DNA from: Coriobacterium glomerans PW2
GTDB taxonomy: Bacteria; Actinomycetota; Coriobacteriia; Coriobacteriales; Coriobacteriaceae
Assembly: GCF_000195315.1 (NCBI RefSeq)
Contig: NC_015389.1
Coordinates: 1,612,001 to 1,676,000 of the forward strand
DNA length: 64,000 bases
Direction: 5' to 3'
How positions within the stretch are numbered: the stretch's first letter is position 1; the number at the start of each line of letters is the position of its first letter. A program made the position numbers and the translations under genes. Below the pieces are notes generated by a model that was given only the letters and a program-made list of their open reading frames with translations, was not told where the DNA came from and did not search any database. Shown piece after piece: positions 48,176 to 58,433 of the stretch.

Positions 48176-48544
48176 GGGGGCGACTGGTTTCGACGCGATA
48201 GCTCTGAGAGAGGAAGCAGGCCGTGGTCTCCTCGCCACGTTAAACAGGGGTACCGTCAAATTGAATTGACAACAACAAGTCTTTCGAGCCTTCACTGGCT
48301 CTCGCTGCTTAGTTAAACTGACAGCGCGTCAATCGAGGGAGTTCCCCGCCCCTCGTGCGGCGTCATCTTAGGGGAATGCGTCTGAGCACGTAGCCGGTAT
48401 GGCTCAGACTAAGATCGAACCGACTAGGAACCCGAGGGCGCGTCGCCGCGCGCAAGGGAACCGAATCTCAACCGGCGACTGAGCCTGGAGATGCCGATCA
48501 GGGAGCTTTCGTGGACCGGAGTTCGATTCTCCGCGCCTCCACCA
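48176..48544 (+). ncRNA. ssrA: transfer-messenger RNA (tmRNA)
   Basis: Rescues stalled ribosomes and tags proteins for proteolysis. The tRNA-like ends pair (GGGGGCG at 48176-48182 with CGCCTCC at 48534-48540), with T arm CCGGAGTTCGATTCTCCG and encoded CCA. The reading frame ends CTGGCTCTCGCTGCTTAG, giving a tag of about DNNKSFEPSLALAA (resume codon probably the GAC). Pseudoknot-rich region follows. A TAGAAT at about 48109 is a possible -10. A terminator lies just after. A partial second copy sits 181 bp downstream. Confidence 0.95.
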
Positions 48545-48553
48545 GACAATACA

Positions 48554-48596
48554 AGCCCTTTTTTCCTGTTATCGCAGGTAAAAAGGGCTTTTTATT
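48554..48596 (+). terminator. terminator of ssrA
   Basis: Stem AGCCCTTTTT...AAAAAGGGCT with an inner CCTG/CAGG pair, followed by TTTTATTT; 10 bp past the tmRNA 3' end. Confidence 0.88.
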
Positions 48597-48724
48597 TCGT
48601 CGTTCTTCTTGCATTTCGTTATTGTCTTGGTAACCCGATGGCGGCGAAGGAGGTTTTGGCAACGGATTCGAGGGCCAAAGGCACATGCCACGTTCAGCGC
48701 ATGAGGGGAGGAGGCCAAAAAAAA

Positions 48725-48965
48725 AGGCCGTGGTCTCCTCGCCAAGCCAAACGAATGTATGGTCAAATTGAATTGACAACAACAGGTCTTTCGAGCCTCA
48801 ACTGGCTCTCGCTACTTAGTTAAACTGACAGCGCGTCAATCGAGGGAGTTCCCCGCCCCTCGTGCGGCGTCATCTTAGGGGAATGCGTCTGAGCACGTAG
48901 CCGGTATGGCTCAGACTAAGATCGAACCGACTAGGAACCCGAGGGCGCGTCGCCGCGCGCAAGGG
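48725..48965 (+). pseudogene. partial second copy of tmRNA (no tRNA-like ends)
   Basis: 241 nt matching 48218-48458 of ssrA without gaps and with 13 substitutions, all in its first 93 nt; the last 148 nt (stop codon and pseudoknots) are identical. It lacks both arms of the tRNA-like domain, so it could not be alanylated. The tag frame now reads DNNRSFEPQLALAT, ending AT instead of AA. Most likely a remnant left by recombination or integration at ssrA. Confidence 0.9.
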
Positions 48966-48995
48966 CATATGGTCACTTCTGTGGCGCTTTTGCTC

Positions 48996-49085
48996 TATAA
49001 TTCGAGGCGCTGCGGAGCCCAAGGTCCGCAGCATCGAGAAAGGTGGTACCTCAGTAAGTCGCTGTCGCCCCGTGTTCTTGATGAA
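48996..49085 (+). other. T-box-like leader fragment
   Basis: Directly after the tmRNA copy come TATAAT (48996-49001), a hairpin GCTGCGGA/TCCGCAGC (49009-49032) and AAAGGTGGTACC (49039-49050), close to the T-box consensus AGGGTGGNACC, then CGCCCCG. No aminoacyl-tRNA synthetase or amino-acid gene follows, and no stem I was seen, so it would be a remnant if it is a T-box at all. Confidence 0.35.
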
Positions 49086-49363
49086 CACCCTGCGGAATTC
49101 GAAGCGGCGAAGCGCTTCCACTTGCCCATGCGCGTCCCTATGCGCTGCGATATGTACATTGCGTTTGTCAAAACCTGTCCGATTAGATGTAAAAAATGAT
49201 ACAGACTATCGAATGAGCTGTTATCATCCGCTGCCCAAAAGGTGCTGGCGAAATCTGAATTAATCTGCGGCACTGGAAGGGCATGTCGAAATGGTTTGCC
49301 GATGCGAGCATGCAAACTATCTGTTTGTAGCTAAAACAAAGAGCCCCCGATAGTTTTGGCAAC

Positions 49364-49639
49364 ATGCAAATTGAGGGCTTTCATCTATTCCAGAAACGTC
49401 TTGGCCGCCATCTTCAGGCTTTTCGCAAGGCAAACCACTATTCGCAAGAGCGGGTCGGGGAGCTCCTCGGCATGGACAGAGTTTCCATTGGCTATATCGA
49501 GCAGGGTAAACGCGCTCCGAAGCTCAGCACGCTGTATGCGCTGACCTCACTTTACGGCATAACGTTATCAGAGTTGTTCGCCTTCGAGCAGGCGGATACC
49601 GGTCCGGAGATACCTGATAGTCAAGATTCGATCTGCTAG
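49364..49639 (+). CDS. small XRE/Cro-type HTH regulator
   Basis: A 91-residue DNA-binding protein. The helix-turn-helix spans residues about 28-66: YSQERVGELLGMDRVSIGYIEQGKRAPKLSTLYALTSLYGI. No other domain. No clear Shine-Dalgarno precedes the ATG. Flanking sequence is AT-richer than the genome, and it stands between the tmRNA fragment and surface-protein genes, so it may belong to an accessory segment. Target unknown. Confidence 0.75.
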   Translation: MQIEGFHLFQKRLGRHLQAFRKANHYSQERVGELLGMDRVSIGYIEQGKRAPKLSTLYALTSLYGITLSELFAFEQADTGPEIPDSQDSIC

Positions 49640-50040
49640 ACCGTCCCGTTGACTGCAAACCGCATTTATGCGGAGTGCGACGCTAATGGACAACATGTCT
49701 TCGGCTGCTCGCGGACGGACGCATCGCTGCAAGCCCTTTTGCTGTTATACGACGCGGGCAGGTCTCGAAAATCGCCTTCAGCTCGCACCCAAGCTAGTGG
49801 GGAGACCGTCGTACTGCTCAAGCCGCTTCACGCGGCAGTTGCCTCAATAACAAATAGTTGGATCAAGAGAGACTGGCAATTGAGCAGCTCGTCTTAGAAG
49901 CGCTTGGCATATCCAGAGCGGGCTAAAAGAGCTGGCGACGCAACAACCGCAACCCTCGCACCTTCAGCACCTGCAGACCCAGATTCATAAGATTGCATTG
50001 AGCCTCACCCTTCCATCCGCCATATAAACCATATATAATT
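49640..50040. other. intergenic region, no gene seen
   Basis: 400 bp between the XRE gene and the end of the membrane-protein gene. Short frames lack ribosome sites. The last 40 bp is AT-only (ATATATAATTTTAATTATCT) and may serve as a bidirectional terminator. Confidence 0.45.
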
Positions 50041-51138
50041 TTAATTATCTAATATACCCCAAGGATCAATTTGTCCATTAGCAGTACGCCATGAACCGTC
50101 CGACCACTGATATGTGGTTGAACTACTGCCATCCTCATAAAAATGTGTTTTCCACTTACCAGTAGGGCGAGGACCGCTGCTGGGCTTGGACCCGCCGCCA
50201 CCTCCAGCAGGCTTGCCAGCACCGCCACCAGCAGGCTGACCGCCACCGGTACCGCCACCAGCCTTGGGTTGCGCAGCCCCGCCACTGTTATTTGAATTTG
50301 CAGCAGCCTTGCGCGCCGCCTCGTCCTCGGCAGCCTTCTTTGCAGCATCAGCCTTGGCCTGGGTCACCGCATCGATACGAGCCTGGAAACGGGTAACCTG
50401 ATCCTGCGCTGACTTCACAAGCTTTTCGTTGCTGGAACCGGGCATGCTCCAAAACTTCTTGGCAACCTCGTCCTTCTGAACGGTCTCAAGCACGCTGTTC
50501 AGAGCGCCCAGACGCTGGTTCAAATCGTCAAGATTGTCCGTACCGTCCACGTTGAAGTTGGCCTGCTCGTCAACCGCATCCTGCCATTTCTTGATCTGCA
50601 CGTCCTGAACATTCTTGATCCGCTTGCTGTACTCGGTCTCAAGCTTGCCCCAGTCCTGATCCGTACCGTCAGCGTACTTCAGATTGTTGTCGTTGGAATC
50701 CTTCTTGACCTGATCCAGTGACTTCTGATACCCATCGATCCGCTCGATCATATGATCCAGATCAAGGTCGGCCAGATTCACCTGATCCAGATGCTTGGCG
50801 GGGTCCAGCTTGCTGTAGGCCTGCTCGACCTCCTGATTGTGCTTGCTGGCCTGCTCGCGGTAGCTGTTTCCGTACACAGCCCCGGCACCGCATGCAAGAA
50901 CCGCCACAATCAGAGCGGTTGCTATAACCGCCTTGCGCTTCTTGGGATTCTTGCCCTTGTTGTTACCATTCTCGCTTTGAACGATAGGAACGCTCTCGGA
51001 GTCCACCATGCTTTGCGCATGCTCCCCTACGCTTTCGCTTCCCATATGATCCGGCTGGGGCTCAAGAGGACTCAGCCCAGCATCGGGAGTGCTCCCCGCC
51101 CTGCTGCCGCTCAGATTGTCAGCTTTTCTGCCATTCAT
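50041..51138 (-). CDS. membrane-anchored coiled-coil protein with Gly/Pro-rich stalk
   Basis: A 365-residue protein. A polar cytoplasmic N-terminus (about 65 residues) leads to one transmembrane segment (KRKAVIATALIVAVLACGAGAVYG), then a long charged helical, probably coiled-coil region (about 90-275), a GGGTGGGQPAGGGAGKPAGG low-complexity stalk, and a C-terminal small domain KWKTHFYEDGSSSTTYQWSDGSWRTANG. No sorting signal; topology would put the C-terminus outside. ATG at 51138 follows AGAGGCG. No family recognised; similar layouts occur in bifidobacteria. Confidence 0.7.
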   Translation of the reverse strand: MNGRKADNLSGSRAGSTPDAGLSPLEPQPDHMGSESVGEHAQSMVDSESVPIVQSENGNNKGKNPKKRKAVIATALIVAVLACGAGAVYGNSYREQASKHNQEVEQAYSKLDPAKHLDQVNLADLDLDHMIERIDGYQKSLDQVKKDSNDNNLKYADGTDQDWGKLETEYSKRIKNVQDVQIKKWQDAVDEQANFNVDGTDNLDDLNQRLGALNSVLETVQKDEVAKKFWSMPGSSNEKLVKSAQDQVTRFQARIDAVTQAKADAAKKAAEDEAARKAAANSNNSGGAAQPKAGGGTGGGQPAGGGAGKPAGGGGGSKPSSGPRPTGKWKTHFYEDGSSSTTYQWSDGSWRTANGQIDPWGILDN

Positions 51139-51542
51139 TTTAATCGCCTCTACATTCTTCATGTCGCATTTTCGGCTGGTATCAATCGGCTGGGCTTAAG
51201 CGAGCTCAAGGATGTCCTTCAACCGAAGCGCTATAGATCTGGTCGATTCAACCGATCAGCTGGTCTCACAATGGTCTCAAAGAGCACGCGACCGCCCAGA
51301 ATCCGGCGTCGTCCAAATATGATGCTCGGCAAAAAAAGACCCTTATCAAGAGAGCTGATGCGGTGCCGGCATCCCATCGGGTTTTCTGTAAAAGAGGGGC
51401 GGGATCGCCGATCACGTTGCTGGCGGGGAGCCTCAGCACACGTGCTCTGAGGCTCCCGATATCGCTGCCGCGACATGGTCCATGGTGATCTCTGCCGCCT
51501 GCTCATCACTTCACGTTCATTCTGCATCGACAGCCCATCAAG
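51139..51542. other. intergenic region with a hairpin
   Basis: About 400 bp between two envelope-protein genes. 51426-51457 forms an 11-bp stem (GGGAGCCTCAG) extendable by AGCAC/GTGCT with a small bulge; no T run on either strand. It may end the transcript of the upstream InlB-like gene. No gene was recognised. Confidence 0.5.
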
Positions 51543-53006
51543 CTACGAGTTGCGACGGCAGATATATCCGCCTGCTGCAAAGACAGAACCGAGACCAGCG
51601 AGCGCTCCCGCTATAGCAGGAGAGTTGCCATCACCTGTCCCCGGGATGGGCCCTTCTTCCGTGGTGTCGTTCTGCACCTGGTCGGGATTGTTATTCTGCG
51701 AATCGTCGGACTTGCTGTTATCGTCGTTTGTCGTGCCGCCGCCTGCACCATCGCCGGAATCGTCGTTGCCGCCATTGGGCGCCTTCACAACAACCCAAAA
51801 CATCGAGGTCACATCCGACAGATCTGATATCTGCAGGGACGCTATATTATTAGTAATGGGTTTTCGCTCTGAGGTAACAGTTCCATCCATATGGATGCTG
51901 AACACGTCGAAAGCATTTGCTCCTTTGTACTCATCAAGCGTAATAGCGCAACTAAGCTTAAAAGACCCAAACCCGTTATGAATCTCCTTGCCATTCACAA
52001 AAAGTTTAGGGCTGATAGAACAGAGGCATCCATCGGTAAAATTGAACGGAAGCTTATCATACTCACTAGCTGAGGGGATGGGGCAATTCAGAACGATTTT
52101 TGCACCATCGGGGACGTTGGGGCCATGCAGAATGCCATCAACTTGAAGTATTTCCGCACTTCCAAATAAAATATTTACATTTGTATTTGCTCCTTTGAGG
52201 CGCCATGAGGTTAGCAGATGCACGTCTTTATCAATGGGAGTGTCCTTGGTGTACTGATGCCCGTATTGATCGAACCATCCGTTGAAGATGTACTTCGGAT
52301 TGCCGGGATGAGGCATTCCCGGCTCCATCATCACACTGGACTTCGAATTTATCCCAAGCGTAAAGAAATCGCCGCACTCATGTTGATTGTCAAGTGCCTC
52401 TTTCATGGTTTTGCCAGAAAGGATGCTGATGGGGGTGACCTCATATGGATCAGGATCACCGCGAAGATCAGAACTAAAAGGCACATAAGGATTGAAAAGT
52501 ACATTCATATATACTTTATGCTGATCAAACGCATAGACAGCGCTCAGCTTCAAATCACCGCTGACGGGTTTTTTGAAATCGTACAGATCCTTGGTGATGT
52601 CTGACGCCTCAGCGAACTCGGTCTGATCGCCGATGCGCCATCCGACGAAATCAAAATGATGGTCGTTGTAGTACGGCTTGTTTGCATCATCAAAGATTCC
52701 GGATTCCTTGTACCCCGGGTCGGCGACCGCTTGGCCGTCGGGTACGTGGACCTCCTTCAATGTCGTTGAGTCTTGGCCGACGATGAAGATGACTGTGTGG
52801 GTTGACGCATTTTCAGGCGTCGAGATCGCGTCGGGGTCATTCTTTTGTTCCGGGGAACTGTTCTGTTCGTCTGCCGCAAGCGGATTCTGCCCCGCATCGT
52901 CATCTGCATACGCCATGTTGGCCGCACGAACGGATGCGCCGACGCCGAGCAGGAGGAACATCGTTGCCCCGACCAGCAGACGCCCTCGCAATCTTCTCAA
53001 GTTCAC
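51543..53006 (-). CDS. cell-surface protein with InlB-type repeats and sortase-like anchor
   Basis: A 487-residue secreted protein. Signal peptide: VNLRRLRGRLLVGATMFLLLGVGASVRAANMAYA, cleaved near residue 35. An acidic Gln/Asn-rich stretch follows, then at least two Listeria-Bacteroides (InlB B) type repeats (HTVIFIVGQDSTTLKEVHVPDGQAV...HFDFVGWR; KYIFNGWFDQYGHQYTKDTPIDKDVHLLTSW), a spacer rich in Asp/Asn, and a C-terminal anchor: IPGTGD, hydrophobic segment, CRRNS. The anchor motif is non-canonical. GTG at 53006 chosen with AAAGGGG. Lower GC than neighbours, suggesting acquisition. Confidence 0.8.
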   Translation of the reverse strand: MNLRRLRGRLLVGATMFLLLGVGASVRAANMAYADDDAGQNPLAADEQNSSPEQKNDPDAISTPENASTHTVIFIVGQDSTTLKEVHVPDGQAVADPGYKESGIFDDANKPYYNDHHFDFVGWRIGDQTEFAEASDITKDLYDFKKPVSGDLKLSAVYAFDQHKVYMNVLFNPYVPFSSDLRGDPDPYEVTPISILSGKTMKEALDNQHECGDFFTLGINSKSSVMMEPGMPHPGNPKYIFNGWFDQYGHQYTKDTPIDKDVHLLTSWRLKGANTNVNILFGSAEILQVDGILHGPNVPDGAKIVLNCPIPSASEYDKLPFNFTDGCLCSISPKLFVNGKEIHNGFGSFKLSCAITLDEYKGANAFDVFSIHMDGTVTSERKPITNNIASLQISDLSDVTSMFWVVVKAPNGGNDDSGDGAGGGTTNDDNSKSDDSQNNNPDQVQNDTTEEGPIPGTGDGNSPAIAGALAGLGSVFAAGGYICRRNS

Positions 53007-53459
53007 AGGATCCCCTTTCATCGGATATGAAAACAAACAGTTTGCATTTTAATGTGTTGTACTATAGATGTAAACTTTTAGTTTGATATTGTTACAAAGG
53101 CTGCTGGTGAGGAGGCGGCGGAATCTACAAGTATGCCAGCGCCTTGAGAACACACCGCAAGACCTTCATGCTCGCGTGCAGGTCCCCGTGCATCAGTCTG
53201 TCTGATCCATTGTTTGGCATTGCTTTTCTAATTGCCGCTTGAGCAGATCTTTGCAACGATGCGACGCATCCTTTGATATCGAGAGCCGCGCAGGGGAAGA
53301 TGGAGGATCCGCTCATCACGCAAAGCCACGCTCTGCACGGGTAGAAAGCCCTGTGTTGAGCGAATCGGCTCCGACATCGACGATGCCGGATGCCGCGCGG
53401 CGCGGATGCGGTGCGCATGATTCGAGCTCAACGACCCGCAACGAGTGAAAGGACGCGCT
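53007..53459. other. intergenic region, AT-rich promoter zone of the surface gene
   Basis: The first 90 bp is AT-rich with the palindrome CAAACTGTTTG (about 53033-53045) and AAACTAAAAGTTT (about 53075), possible regulator sites upstream of the InlB-like gene. The remainder to the ferritin-like gene is GC-rich, no gene seen. Confidence 0.45.
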
Positions 53460-54698
53460 ATGAACCCATTCGAGCTGGAACGGAGAGCCGACAAAGACAC
53501 ACTTCTGTTCACCTGGAAGGATCTCGCAGTCAAACCCTATAACAAGGCGGAGGTCGATCCATACACCAAGTGCCGCATCATCCTCATGAACGGCATCGAG
53601 GTCGAAGCCGTCATGTTCGGGCATAACTTCAACAGAAACTGCCCGGACAACGATCTGAGGCGCGAGATCGCTCTCACACGGGCCTTGGAGCAGTCTCAGC
53701 AGAAACGCGTGAACTGGCTGTCGCCCTCCGATGAGACCCCATTGGAACTCACGATCGGCTATGAGCAACTGGCCGTCGACCTGACCGCGTGGCTGGCGAT
53801 CCACGAACCCGACTCATATGCCAAGTCGTGCATGGACTTCGCGCTCCTGGAGGACTTCGACCACCTCTATCGCTACTCCAACCTGATGAAGCTCAACGAG
53901 AACATCCCCGCGGAGTCCCTGGTCATGGCCACCATCGAGATCACCCCGGGAAGACCGACCATCTCCCATCACAGGCACCCCTTCGACGCCGTCCGCAAGC
54001 CGGGAGACGTGAAGAAACACGACATCCGGACCACGCTCGGCGCGCTCATCCTGACGGCCGGCGAGCAGCAGACGATGAACTTCTACATGAACATCGGCAA
54101 CCAGATGGAAGAGGGCCCCGGACGCGATCTGTATCAGGAGATCGCCATGGTCGAAGAGGACCATGTGACCCATTATGGCGATCTGCTCGATCCGAAAGGC
54201 ACATGGCTCGAGAACATGCTCTTGCGCGAGTACATGGAGACCTATGTTTACTATTCGTTCCTCGAGACGGAGACCGATCCTGCGGTCAAGAAGATCTGGG
54301 AGCGCCATTTCGACCAGGAGGTCGCGCACCTGCACAAGGCGGCAGATCTGCTCAAGAGCTATGAGGGAACGGAGTGGAGCCAGATGATCCCGGACGGAAA
54401 GTACCCCGATCTGCTCGATCTGCATCCTCAGAAGGACTACGTCCGCTCGATTCTCGCCGAGCAGGTCGAGCTCACCGCGCAGGAGGAGAAGTTCGTCGAT
54501 GTGAATGAGCTGCCCGATGACTACCGCTTCTTCGCTTGGAACAAGCATGTCAACGGGAATGCGGAGGATGTGCCCAGTCATGTCGTCATACAGAAGATGC
54601 AAGGCGTCGACGGCAGGGACTATCGCTTCGAGGACAAGGAAAGCCCAGTTCCTGAGCTTCGCGACCGCTCCGAGGACAACACCGAGCTCGGGCGGTAG
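53460..54698 (+). CDS. ferritin-like (diiron carboxylate) protein
   Basis: A 412-residue soluble protein. The central part looks like a four-helix ferritin-like bundle with repeated acidic and His residues: MDFALLEDFDHLYRYSNLM, LYQEIAMVEEDHVTHYGDLL, and YMETYVYYSFLETETDPAVKKIWERHFDQEVAHLHKAADLLKSYEG (ExxH-type spacing as in rubrerythrins). The N-terminal about 100 residues are without a match. ATG at 53460 with GAAAGGA. Oxidative-stress or iron handling is plausible. Single gene with a strong terminator. Confidence 0.68.
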   Translation: MNPFELERRADKDTLLFTWKDLAVKPYNKAEVDPYTKCRIILMNGIEVEAVMFGHNFNRNCPDNDLRREIALTRALEQSQQKRVNWLSPSDETPLELTIGYEQLAVDLTAWLAIHEPDSYAKSCMDFALLEDFDHLYRYSNLMKLNENIPAESLVMATIEITPGRPTISHHRHPFDAVRKPGDVKKHDIRTTLGALILTAGEQQTMNFYMNIGNQMEEGPGRDLYQEIAMVEEDHVTHYGDLLDPKGTWLENMLLREYMETYVYYSFLETETDPAVKKIWERHFDQEVAHLHKAADLLKSYEGTEWSQMIPDGKYPDLLDLHPQKDYVRSILAEQVELTAQEEKFVDVNELPDDYRFFAWNKHVNGNAEDVPSHVVIQKMQGVDGRDYRFEDKESPVPELRDRSEDNTELGR

Positions 54699-54722
54699 CG
54701 CCGCACGATCTTAGGAAGCGGC

Positions 54723-54757
54723 AAGGGGATGGCGATCATCGCGTCGCCATCCCCTTT
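54723..54757 (+). terminator. terminator of the ferritin-like gene
   Basis: 13-bp perfect stem AAGGGGATGGCGA/TCGCCATCCCCTT with an 8-nt loop, ending in TTTTTC. Confidence 0.88.
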
Positions 54758-54851
54758 TTCTCACCCAATCCCGCATCATGCTGCGGAGCAGAAGCTGATA
54801 CCGCCGCCCGCCTACGGTTTCATCCTCGGGTCGGCAGCATTTCTCGGATGT

Positions 54852-54862
54852 CCCCCCCCCCC
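54852..54862. repeat. C11 homopolymer tract
   Basis: Eleven consecutive C in the intergenic region between two convergent genes. Long G/C homopolymers are prone to slippage, but no start codon or promoter is near. Confidence 0.9.
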
Positions 54863-55009
54863 ATCGGCTCGGCTCAAAGCCAAGACAGCAAGGAGTCCCC
54901 TGAGACTCCGAGGGGAGCCGATCATCGCGTTTATGCTCAGAGCGTGCGAGCTGTGCTGTGCCCGCAGCCCGCTCAAGAGATCAGCGACCTTCGAGTGAAG
55001 CTGCGCAAA

Positions 55010-55058: not shown

Positions 55059-58000
55059 TCAGCGCTCGGTGCGCCGACGGAAAGCCGCCGCCAGACCGAT
55101 CGCGCCCGCTCCCGCCGCCAAGGCGATGAAGGACGAGAAGCCTGCGATGTCACCGGTCGAGGCCAGGCTGCCGCGAGCGCCTCTCGAGCCATTCCGCCCG
55201 GAACCGCTGCTCGGGCCGCGACCGTCGCGGGTGCCGCTGTTCGCCCCGTTGCCGTTGCCGCCGTTGCTGTTTCCACCGTGGTCGCCGCCACCGTTGTTGT
55301 TCCCACCGTGATCGTCGCCGCCATGGTCGTCGCCGCCGCCGGTCGGACGGATGTCCGCGGTGGTCTTGAAAGTGCCCTTGCCGTCAGCCAGAATGTAGTT
55401 CTTCGCCACCGGCCCGTTCTCGACGAGGTCGGCGGTCACGATCACCGACTTTCCCGTGCCGGCTTCAGCGTCGTCGAACAGAGCGGTCGCGGTGTAGTCC
55501 TGAGGAGTGGCGAGCGCTTCGCCGTCGATGAGGCCCTTGAACTCAACCGAATCCAGAGTCGCATCGCGCTTGCCGTCCCAGTCCTTGGATGCCACGGTCG
55601 CCGAGGAGATCTCGATGGGTTTGCGATCGATGGTCAGCTTCGTTTCAAGCGGCCCTGTCGGCGCATAGGCGATGTAGGCCGTATCGTCCCGTGCGATGCC
55701 GACCGTCGCCTCCGTCGAGTAGGTGCCGGCGTCCTTCGGCAAGCCGTCCGCCCAGTCGCCGTCCCCCGCGCGATAGCGGAACCTCGCACTCGCCACGAGA
55801 CCGTCGAAGCCCGGGATCCCCTGGTCGCCGTCGCTCAGGGCGAACAGTCCGACATCGGGTGCCGCGCCGTCGTAGACCTTCTCGAGTTCGGTCTTGCCCG
55901 ACAGGCCGTAGGTCTTGAGACGGTAGATCCTGATGGGGTAGGTGCCCTTCGTCGCGCCCTCGACGTTGTCCAGGGCGACGTAGCCCTGATCCGGCGCCCA
56001 CTCGTAGGCGCGGCCCGTGTCGGTGCCCGGAAGCTCGGCGGCTGCGCCCTTGCCGTAGATGCCGCCGGTGATCGAGATCGCGTCGGAGTCGATGGCCTTG
56101 GATCCCTCGCCGGGGACGGCCAAGATGGAACCGCCGGAGATGGAGACCTTGCCTGTCGAGTTGGCCCGGGCCCGACTGCCGATTCCGGGTGCCTTCGCTC
56201 CTCCGGTCCCGGTGACGACGCCGCTCTTGATCACGATCACCGCGCCGAAGCCGCCTGCTCCGCTACCGATGCCGGAGCCACCGGCTCCGCCGGTCGCGAT
56301 GATCTGACCACCTGTGACGGTGATCGAGCCGCCGGTCGATTCGGATCCGCCGCCGATACCCGGCTGCTGGTCGGAACCGGTGGCTGTCACCTTCGTCTGA
56401 TCGAGCACGATCGCGCCGACCGAGTCGGCCGGCTCGGTGGCGCCGCCGCCGATGCCCGCGCCGGACCCGCCGGTCGCGGTGATGTCGCCGCCGGTGATGT
56501 GAATGGTGCCCTTGCCGCCGCGCTCTCCGCCGCCGATGCCCGCACCGTAGCCGGAAACGGAGACGACGGTGCTGTTGGTTATCTGGATGTCGCCTGCCGG
56601 ACTGTAGGCGCCTCCGCCGATCCCGGCGCTCGACGTCGCGCCCTTCGATGTCACGTCTGAGTTGGAGATGGTGATCTTGCCGTCGGCGGATCCGCCGGAG
56701 CTGCAGCAGATCCCGCCTCCGCCGTTCTCATCGCCGACCGCGATGATCTTGCCACCTGTGATCGAGATCACGGCGCTCGCCTTGTTGTCCACCAGACTGG
56801 GCATGAGACCTATGGCAGCCCCCGACCCCGAGCCCTTTGCGCTCACCTGCGCGTCATCGAGCGTGATCGACGACGTATCGTCGAAACCGGTGCTTCCGGC
56901 ACCGATGCCGCAGGCTCCGTTGATGGCCGTAGCGCGGACCGTCGCGCCCTTGATGAGTATCGTTCCGGCTCCGCCATCGTATCCGCCACCGATTCCAGCG
57001 GCACCGCTCATCGACGTCGCCGTGACGTCTCCGCCGGTGATGCTCACGTTGCCCTTGTTGCCGCTTGACCATCCACCGACACCTGCACCGTTGTATCCCG
57101 AGGCCACGATGGTGCTCTTCGAGATGGTGATGTCAACGTTGCCGGTGCCGCCGTAGCCGTCCCCGATGCCGGAGCCCGCGTTGGAATCCGCATGCACGGT
57201 CGCATTCGAGATGGTTATGATCGCGTGCGAATCTCCGGTGCCGGTGCCGATGCCCGCCCCGGAGACGCCTGTGGCGGTGACGTCGCTGTCAGAGATGGTG
57301 ATATCGGTGTCGCCGGTGCTGTCGAGTCCGGCACCGATCCCCGCGCCGCGCCCCGCCTTGGCATGTACCGTGCCCCCGGTGATCCTGATCTTGCCCTGCG
57401 GGGAGCGGGTCGCCGATCCGATGCCGGCCGAGCTGCTGCCCTGGGCGGTCACGTCACCGCCCGAGATGGTGATTTCTCCGCCCGATGAGCTCTGATAGGC
57501 GGCACCGATACCGGCAGCCGAGCTATTGGACGTCGCCTTCACCGTCCCGCCCGAGATGGTGATCGTACCGACGGCACCGCTGTTCATGTCGCCGATCGCC
57601 GCCGCATGCTGACTGGTGGCGGTCACGTTGCCGCCGGTGATGGTGATGGCTCCCTTGGTCGCGGCGGTCCAGCCGCCCAAGGCCGAGTTGTATCCGTTCG
57701 CGACGACGGTTCCTCCCGAGATCGTGATGCGCCCGTCGCCGGAGTTGCCGCTCAGATTGCCGATTGCCGCGCCCCTTCCTCCGGTGACGTTGAGCGTGCC
57801 ACCTGAGATGGAGATCGCTCCCGTAGACGTAGCGTTGCCGCCGCCGATACCGGCTCCGCCCGGAGCGGTGACGGTGAGCGTCCCCGTGGATGCCTTCGTA
57901 ACGTTGAGCGTGGAGCCATTCGGCACGAGCACGGGAGTCTCGGACCCCGGGCCCGTGATCGAGCTTGTGCCCTTGAGGGTCAGATCGAGAACCCCAGTTG

Positions 58001-58364
58001 ACATTCCGATGGCGAGCACTTTGGAGTAGCCGGCATACGAGATCTTGACGCTGTCGAGCGTGATCGCCGCATGCGCGCCATCGGCGACGGCGATGCCGTC
58101 TTCTGTGGCGGTGTCTTTGCCCGCAGCCATGGAGATCGTGACGTTGGCGCCGTTCTGCACTCTGACGATATTGGTGTCTTCTTGACCGGCAAGGGTCTCA
58201 TATGTCCAATCAACCCCCTTTGTGCCTCCGGTCACCTCAAAGGCGCCGGCAGTCTCGGCCCACGCCTGTTTGGGGGATAGCATGAGAGCAGCCATAAAGC
58301 CCACGAGCAGAGCGAATGCTATCAAGGCCGATCTGTCATACCTTCTATCAGCGGTTCTGACCAT
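55059..58364 (-). CDS. large repeat-containing cell-surface protein with sortase-like anchor
   Basis: A 1101-residue exported protein. Signal peptide: ALIAFALLVGFMAALMLSPKQAWA (cleaved after about residue 36). Residues about 160-770 hold some 21 glycine-rich repeats of 27-33 residues with core GDVTATGGSGAGIGGG...GTITISGG, likely a beta-helix or solenoid. Then come a YDG/Ig-like part (LSGKTELEKVYDGAAPDVGLF, KLTIDRKPIEISSATV), a His/Gly/Asn-rich linker (GGDDHGGDDHGGNNNGG), and LASTGD, hydrophobic stretch, RRRTER. ATG 58364 with AAGGAC. Probably an adhesin or scaffold. Confidence 0.82.
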   Translation of the reverse strand: MVRTADRRYDRSALIAFALLVGFMAALMLSPKQAWAETAGAFEVTGGTKGVDWTYETLAGQEDTNIVRVQNGANVTISMAAGKDTATEDGIAVADGAHAAITLDSVKISYAGYSKVLAIGMSTGVLDLTLKGTSSITGPGSETPVLVPNGSTLNVTKASTGTLTVTAPGGAGIGGGNATSTGAISISGGTLNVTGGRGAAIGNLSGNSGDGRITISGGTVVANGYNSALGGWTAATKGAITITGGNVTATSQHAAAIGDMNSGAVGTITISGGTVKATSNSSAAGIGAAYQSSSGGEITISGGDVTAQGSSSAGIGSATRSPQGKIRITGGTVHAKAGRGAGIGAGLDSTGDTDITISDSDVTATGVSGAGIGTGTGDSHAIITISNATVHADSNAGSGIGDGYGGTGNVDITISKSTIVASGYNGAGVGGWSSGNKGNVSITGGDVTATSMSGAAGIGGGYDGGAGTILIKGATVRATAINGACGIGAGSTGFDDTSSITLDDAQVSAKGSGSGAAIGLMPSLVDNKASAVISITGGKIIAVGDENGGGGICCSSGGSADGKITISNSDVTSKGATSSAGIGGGAYSPAGDIQITNSTVVSVSGYGAGIGGGERGGKGTIHITGGDITATGGSGAGIGGGATEPADSVGAIVLDQTKVTATGSDQQPGIGGGSESTGGSITVTGGQIIATGGAGGSGIGSGAGGFGAVIVIKSGVVTGTGGAKAPGIGSRARANSTGKVSISGGSILAVPGEGSKAIDSDAISITGGIYGKGAAAELPGTDTGRAYEWAPDQGYVALDNVEGATKGTYPIRIYRLKTYGLSGKTELEKVYDGAAPDVGLFALSDGDQGIPGFDGLVASARFRYRAGDGDWADGLPKDAGTYSTEATVGIARDDTAYIAYAPTGPLETKLTIDRKPIEISSATVASKDWDGKRDATLDSVEFKGLIDGEALATPQDYTATALFDDAEAGTGKSVIVTADLVENGPVAKNYILADGKGTFKTTADIRPTGGGDDHGGDDHGGNNNGGGDHGGNSNGGNGNGANSGTRDGRGPSSGSGRNGSRGARGSLASTGDIAGFSSFIALAAGAGAIGLAAAFRRRTER
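56063..57884 (-). repeat. about 21 tandem glycine-rich protein repeats
   Basis: DNA region encoding successive units of 27-33 residues, each with AGIGGG-like and ITISGG-like blocks. Units are diverged, not identical, which argues for an old expansion rather than recent slippage. Confidence 0.82.
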
Positions 58365-58433
58365 AGTGAACCGTCCTTCCGTGCGCGGACTCGCAATCGG
58401 CCGCATAGCGATCGTACAGACGCCATGGTTCAT

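Follow-up and report, generated by a model that had tools for sequence, protein, structure and literature searches.

Gene conversion between bacterial paralogues, for example rRNA operons and the tuf genes, leaves a sharp change from diverged to identical sequence. For tmRNA, partial extra copies have been described in two settings. Surveys of tmRNA genes set aside pseudogenes and fragments, which the excerpted text of Hudson et al. (2014, PMC4131195) describes as lacking one gene end. In the excerpts of the Islander work (PMC4383910) and of the work on Dehalococcoides ssrA islands (PMC3146451), the partial repeats consist of the 3′ end of the gene and bound an island.

The locus presented here lies in a window of 64,000 nucleotides, the whole stretch of DNA that was analysed, from Coriobacterium glomerans PW2. 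Similar to the pseudogenes of the excerpted survey (PMC4131195), it contains an extra partial tmRNA in a genome with one good gene; unlike those, the fragment misses both gene ends and is in part identical to the gene. With the island repeats, as far as the excerpts of PMC4383910 and PMC3146451 describe them, it shares the partial direct repeat downstream of the tmRNA gene, but the repeat does not include the 3′ end and there is no tyrosine integrase in the vicinity. It also differs from conversion between rRNA operons or between tuf genes, in that one of the two partners would be a non-functional piece of an RNA gene that is normally single-copy. Among open-licence PMC papers, in the portions of text returned by the literature search, no matching case of tmRNA paralogues or of tmRNA gene conversion was recognised. 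The fragment belongs to the general kind of tmRNA pseudogenes; it is ordinary in kind and carries a neat evolutionary signature.

The functional gene and the fragment beside it

The features discussed below are the following.

48176-48544, + strand: one-piece functional ssrA (tmRNA) gene with encoded CCA (ARAGORN, Rfam RF00023)
48268-48312, + strand: tag frame of the functional gene, DNNKSFEPSLALAA plus stop (comparative frame against 42 relatives)
48545-48605, + strand: terminator-like hairpin and T run 3′ of the functional gene (fold −24.6 kcal/mol)
48725-48965, + strand: tmRNA gene fragment, gene positions 43-283, without both gene ends; pseudogene-like
48745-48814, + strand: diverged stretch of the fragment with 13 differences, damaged PK1 and tag DNNRSFEPQLALAT
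48815-48965, + strand: stretch identical to gene 48308-48458, putative conversion tract (sequence comparison)

ARAGORN and Rfam together place exactly one tmRNA gene in the window, on the + strand at 48176-48544, where the full RF00023 model (1-374) is matched at 142.3 bits. The ARAGORN tag call for this gene was set aside, and the comparative frame, D(N/K)N...ALAA, which is conserved in 42/42 relatives, was preferred. By direct reading, its stop codon is the TAG at 48310-48312. ARAGORN tags are implausible both for this gene and for the family members L012-L067 (e.g. GMAQTK..., ARQPGDF...), and automatic tmRNA tag annotation in the family needs care. The hairpin 3′ of the gene is not listed by the consensus scan.

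The fragment is the second arm of a direct repeat, 48218-48458 and 48725-48965, of 241 nt with 95% identity at an offset of 507. It starts 180 nt past the end of the functional gene and has the same orientation. A search of the own genome (one contig, 2,115,681 bases) returned the gene and one further place only, which is the fragment. Acceptor stem, T arm and CCA, the tRNA-like domain of RF00023, are absent from it and the P2 helix is reduced to a few bases; an Rfam search gives no tmRNA match even at E<=10. Its PK1 is not intact, and its tag frame is open and ends ALAT in place of an ALAA-type end. When the missing gene ends were aligned with the sequence around the fragment, the similarity did not exceed that of shuffled sequence (p 0.19 and 0.61). 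As a partial copy without gene ends that stands next to an intact gene and is changed at invariant sites, it classifies as a tmRNA pseudogene fragment. An earlier note on this DNA had not mentioned the loss of both gene ends. The span it had given, 48218-48820, starts inside the functional gene and ends inside the fragment; the full pair occupies 48176-48965.

Just 5′ of the fragment, the sequence 48709-48738, GAGGAGGCCA, pairs with the first bases of the fragment; the resulting strong hairpin encloses an A9 run (the segment 48690-48769 folds at −27.0 kcal/mol). This hairpin-forming flank is perhaps a trace of how the copy formed. A T-box-like motif suspected near 49045 was rejected, as Rfam returned no more than two matches, which belong to unrelated families, stay below threshold and lie on the terminator-like hairpin described above.

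Position and polarity of the differences

Gene and fragment differ at 13 positions (48238, 48240, 48241, 48246-48249, 48253, 48254, 48278, 48292, 48293 and 48307 in gene coordinates). All of them fall within the first 90 nt of the 241-nt repeat and nine are packed into 17 nt, while the first 20 nt and the last 151 nt of the repeat are identical. The earlier note had recognised both the cluster and the identical end, with lengths of 93 and 148 nt that need this small correction. With even placement, the chance of all 13 differences in the first 90 of 241 sites is 1.5e-6; counted as seven or five independent events, the chance of such clustering is 9e-4 or 7e-3, respectively. An identical run of at least 151 nt was obtained in 6 of 400,000 random placements. 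The uniform divergence of an old duplication, which had been named as the outcome that would speak against a mosaic, is thus not what we observe. Since the last difference, 48307, lies in the final tag codon, the breakpoint is located there or later.

In order to assign the changes to one side, gene and fragment were aligned in register with 42 tmRNAs of the family (39 distinct), in a comparison that names Enorma and Collinsella among the relatives and in which the genus is represented by one genome. These 42 come from 64 family relatives searched; the alignment leaves out the other 22, most of them because their loci had not been fetched, and G032, G041 and G052 because their tmRNA gene is interrupted by a contig end or absent. 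A weak secondary match in L042 was likewise excluded. At 10 of the 13 positions, the gene agrees with 38-42 of the 42 relatives and the fragment departs. Nine of these ten fragment-derived changes are located in PK1, four of them at positions invariant in 42/42 relatives, and in the Rfam structure they fall on a single pair of PK1 stem 1 and on three G residues of stem 2. The change at 48307 converts the last Ala codon of the tag to Thr. Over the first 90 nt, the fragment is farther than the gene from the relatives in 42/42 comparisons. As the earlier note had reported, the tag of the copy, DNNRSFEPQLALAT, ends ALAT and that of the gene, DNNKSFEPSLALAA, ends ALAA; ALAA is the tag end in 42/42 aligned relatives.

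The opposite polarity is found at 48292-48293. The gene has TC at these positions and the fragment C and A, as in 16 and 17 of the 42 relatives; the remaining relatives are gapped. These two differences are changes in the functional gene, where they exchange Gln for Ser in the tag, and the fragment retains the older Gln. The tag ends EPQLALAA in 16/42 relatives, EPQLALAT in the fragment and EPSLALAA in the gene. Because the fragment keeps the Gln of the relatives where the gene has changed, it seems to predate the tag change of the gene, a dating that rests on two adjacent bases and possibly on one event. Position 48278 is uninformative on polarity. In total, ten changes are assigned to the fragment, two to the gene, and one is unclear.

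The identical 3′ part and competing histories

The stretch that is identical in gene and fragment, 48308-48458, is the most variable part among functional genes. Here the gene differs from the relatives by 24% on average and by 21% at minimum, compared to 0 between gene and fragment. In the PK1 stretch 48238-48260, the relatives differ from the gene by only 1.4% on average. The pattern between gene and fragment is reversed relative to this, with nine of the 13 differences in PK1 and none in the variable 3′ part, so that differing constraint does not explain the abrupt shift from diverged to identical sequence. A PK1 that diverged in the fragment while the variable 3′ part matches the current gene points to a PK1 that evolved without constraint and to a 3′ part that was converted, as expected for a gene-converted pseudogene. 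These data support the earlier suggestion of gene conversion that broke off close to the stop codon of the tag, as the differences cease at 48307 and the 151 nt that follow change fastest among the relatives.

We conclude that the fragment is probably a decayed partial duplication and that its 3′ part was made identical at a later time, most simply through gene conversion with the functional gene as donor. Gene positions 43-283, roughly the pseudoknot ring and the tag frame, would have been duplicated in the same orientation in this lineage. Freed from selection, the fragment would have decayed in PK1 and in the tag region, and the functional gene would meanwhile have changed its own tag from Gln to Ser. 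Later recombination between the copies, a gene conversion most likely from gene to fragment, would have overwritten 151 nt or more at the 3′ end of the fragment. The conversion tract would then run to the end of the homology and leave a mosaic with its breakpoint in the last tag codon or immediately 3′ of it.

Two base pairs within the identical stretch bear on the direction of transfer. The pair 48335-48354 is C-G in 42/42 relatives and G-C in both gene and fragment, and the pair 48381-48408 is C-G in 42/42 relatives and U-A in both. Paired changes of this type are expected from selection on a working RNA, and we infer from them a transfer from gene to fragment as the likely direction. The gene departs from invariant columns of the relatives in 6/76 cases within 48308-48458 versus 1/158 elsewhere (Fisher 0.005), an excess that could instead reflect transfer from fragment to gene. 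Four of the six departures are the two compensated pairs. At 48380, a U-C mismatch of 41/42 relatives is a G-C pair in the gene, which improves the pairing; the sixth departure, 48437, is unexplained. As a small natural case, the locus suggests that a single-copy RNA gene can exchange sequence with an adjacent decayed fragment, and feedback into the working gene is possible in principle.

A history without conversion would be a recent partial duplication followed by one local mutational burst in the new copy, through template switch or error-prone repair over about 17-70 nt. Such a burst would account for the nine changes within 17 nt and could explain much of the asymmetry; the clustering reaches only p = 7e-3 when five events are counted. 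We nevertheless regard it as unlikely, because the changes are not all in the copy: at 48292-48293 the fragment has kept the bases of the relatives and the gene has changed, and the older Gln codon of the fragment is left unexplained. In addition, a search of the own genome that allowed up to 3 mismatches found no sequence that could have served as template for the block. The notion that a genomic island or phage displaced a tmRNA piece on integrating into the tmRNA gene draws on the frequent use of tmRNA genes as integration sites, as stated in the excerpts of PMC4383910 and PMC3146451, on the genes of the 10 kb downstream, which are not found beside tmRNA in the relatives examined, and on an HTH regulator nearby. 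Scars of this type repeat the 3′ end of the gene, however; this end is absent from the fragment and occurs once in the window (up to 3 mismatches), and the genome search gave no convincing second occurrence. The only tyrosine-integrase matches, the one integrase class covered, are more than 600 kb away. With neither a 3′-end repeat nor a tyrosine integrase in the interval, the usual 3′-end integration scar was rejected and a displaced piece in general is very improbable.

The earlier note had also considered a hybrid origin. In that case a foreign parent, be it a phage, a plasmid or another species, would have brought in a variant tag ending ALAT. The diverged block and the altered tag letters on which this idea builds do exist, but a second parent is found neither in the 64 family genomes nor in the phage, plasmid and contig collections searched. 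Distant blastn against phages and plasmids returned no parent for the diverged block, two exact patterns, one from the tag region and one from the sequence after it, had 0 matches in IMG/VR, and one exact tag-region pattern gave 0 matches in GTDB-220 contigs, all of these being collections that may omit records of or near the source genome. At up to 3 mismatches, the PK1 block of the fragment occurs in 1/64 family genomes (own included), at the fragment only. A hybrid with a foreign parent is also hard to reconcile with the damaged PK1, the absent tRNA-like domain and the ALAA end of the tag in all 42 aligned relatives, and we consider it close to negligible. Partial duplication with later conversion is the reading that we retain.

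Tag function, rarity and neighbourhood

A tmRNA without acceptor stem, T arm and P2 closing helix and with a damaged PK1 is not alanylated and does not support trans-translation. The earlier note had expected the ALAT end to alter the residue that proteases such as ClpXP recognise. With the tRNA-like domain absent and PK1 damaged, charging and entry into stalled ribosomes are impossible by the known mechanism, and no effect on ClpXP substrates is expected from ALAT. This part of the proposal is not supported, and the altered tag of the fragment is almost certainly never used. The case is mostly a caution against taking a further tag frame in a genome for another tmRNA. A promoter-like site for the fragment was not found on the + strand in a scan that missed the promoter of the functional gene as well. 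The fragment might instead be a separate small RNA that competes for ribosomes or SmpB, with its 3′ identity kept by selection. Its extent, which closely matches the pseudoknot ring together with the tag frame but excludes the tRNA-like part, and the strong hairpin that it forms with its 5′ flank would suit such a role, which we judge most improbable.

With the fragment as query, a match is found in 63/65 family genomes, with none in G032 and G041. The partial-copy arrangement is seen in 1/65 of these genomes, a count to be read as a lower bound, since draft assemblies may hide copies. Contigs end inside the tmRNA gene in G032 (C1:1-55) and in G052, and G041 shows none. Besides the source genome, only G052 has two matches; these were dismissed as a second case, since they are contig ends (C21 and C2) that overlap by exactly 77 nt, a break typical of an assembly graph branch. 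At the level of the order, 281/297 genomes matched, and 23 besides the source genome gave two matches. Sixteen of these represent a single gene that the alignment divides in two or that a contig end interrupts. In the other seven (G292, G265, G203, G164, G166, G040 and G074) the second place is separate. It comprises only the last 23-28 nt in G265, G203, G164 and G166, 24 nt antisense in G040 and 37 nt in G074. No other internal tmRNA fragment of this kind occurs among the 23 two-match genomes of the 297 order genomes, again as a lower bound, given draft assemblies and distant tmRNAs that are matched only in part.

Two of these genomes contain further features. G292 has two full-length tmRNA-like matches on different contigs, C286:4135-4501 (77% to the functional gene) and C106:2798-3161 (73%), which may reflect either a second tmRNA on a mobile element or contamination. 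In G265 (C2:1701846-1735996), a repeat of the final 27 nt of the tmRNA lies 34 kb further downstream, on the same strand; such a scar-like repeat would be expected if a genomic island had entered the tmRNA gene.

The tmRNA gene is adjoined by glmM, rpsI, rplM and a patatin-like gene, which in part or whole, and on varying sides, also adjoin it in most relatives examined. The HTH regulator and surface-type proteins lie in the region 48597-55000. None of the 20 relative stretches examined has a counterpart of this region within 10 kb of tmRNA, and its G+C is lower than that of the upstream side. Further downstream, 55059-58433 encodes a 1124-aa protein with beta-helix repeats and a YDG domain in a strongly repetitive coding stretch.
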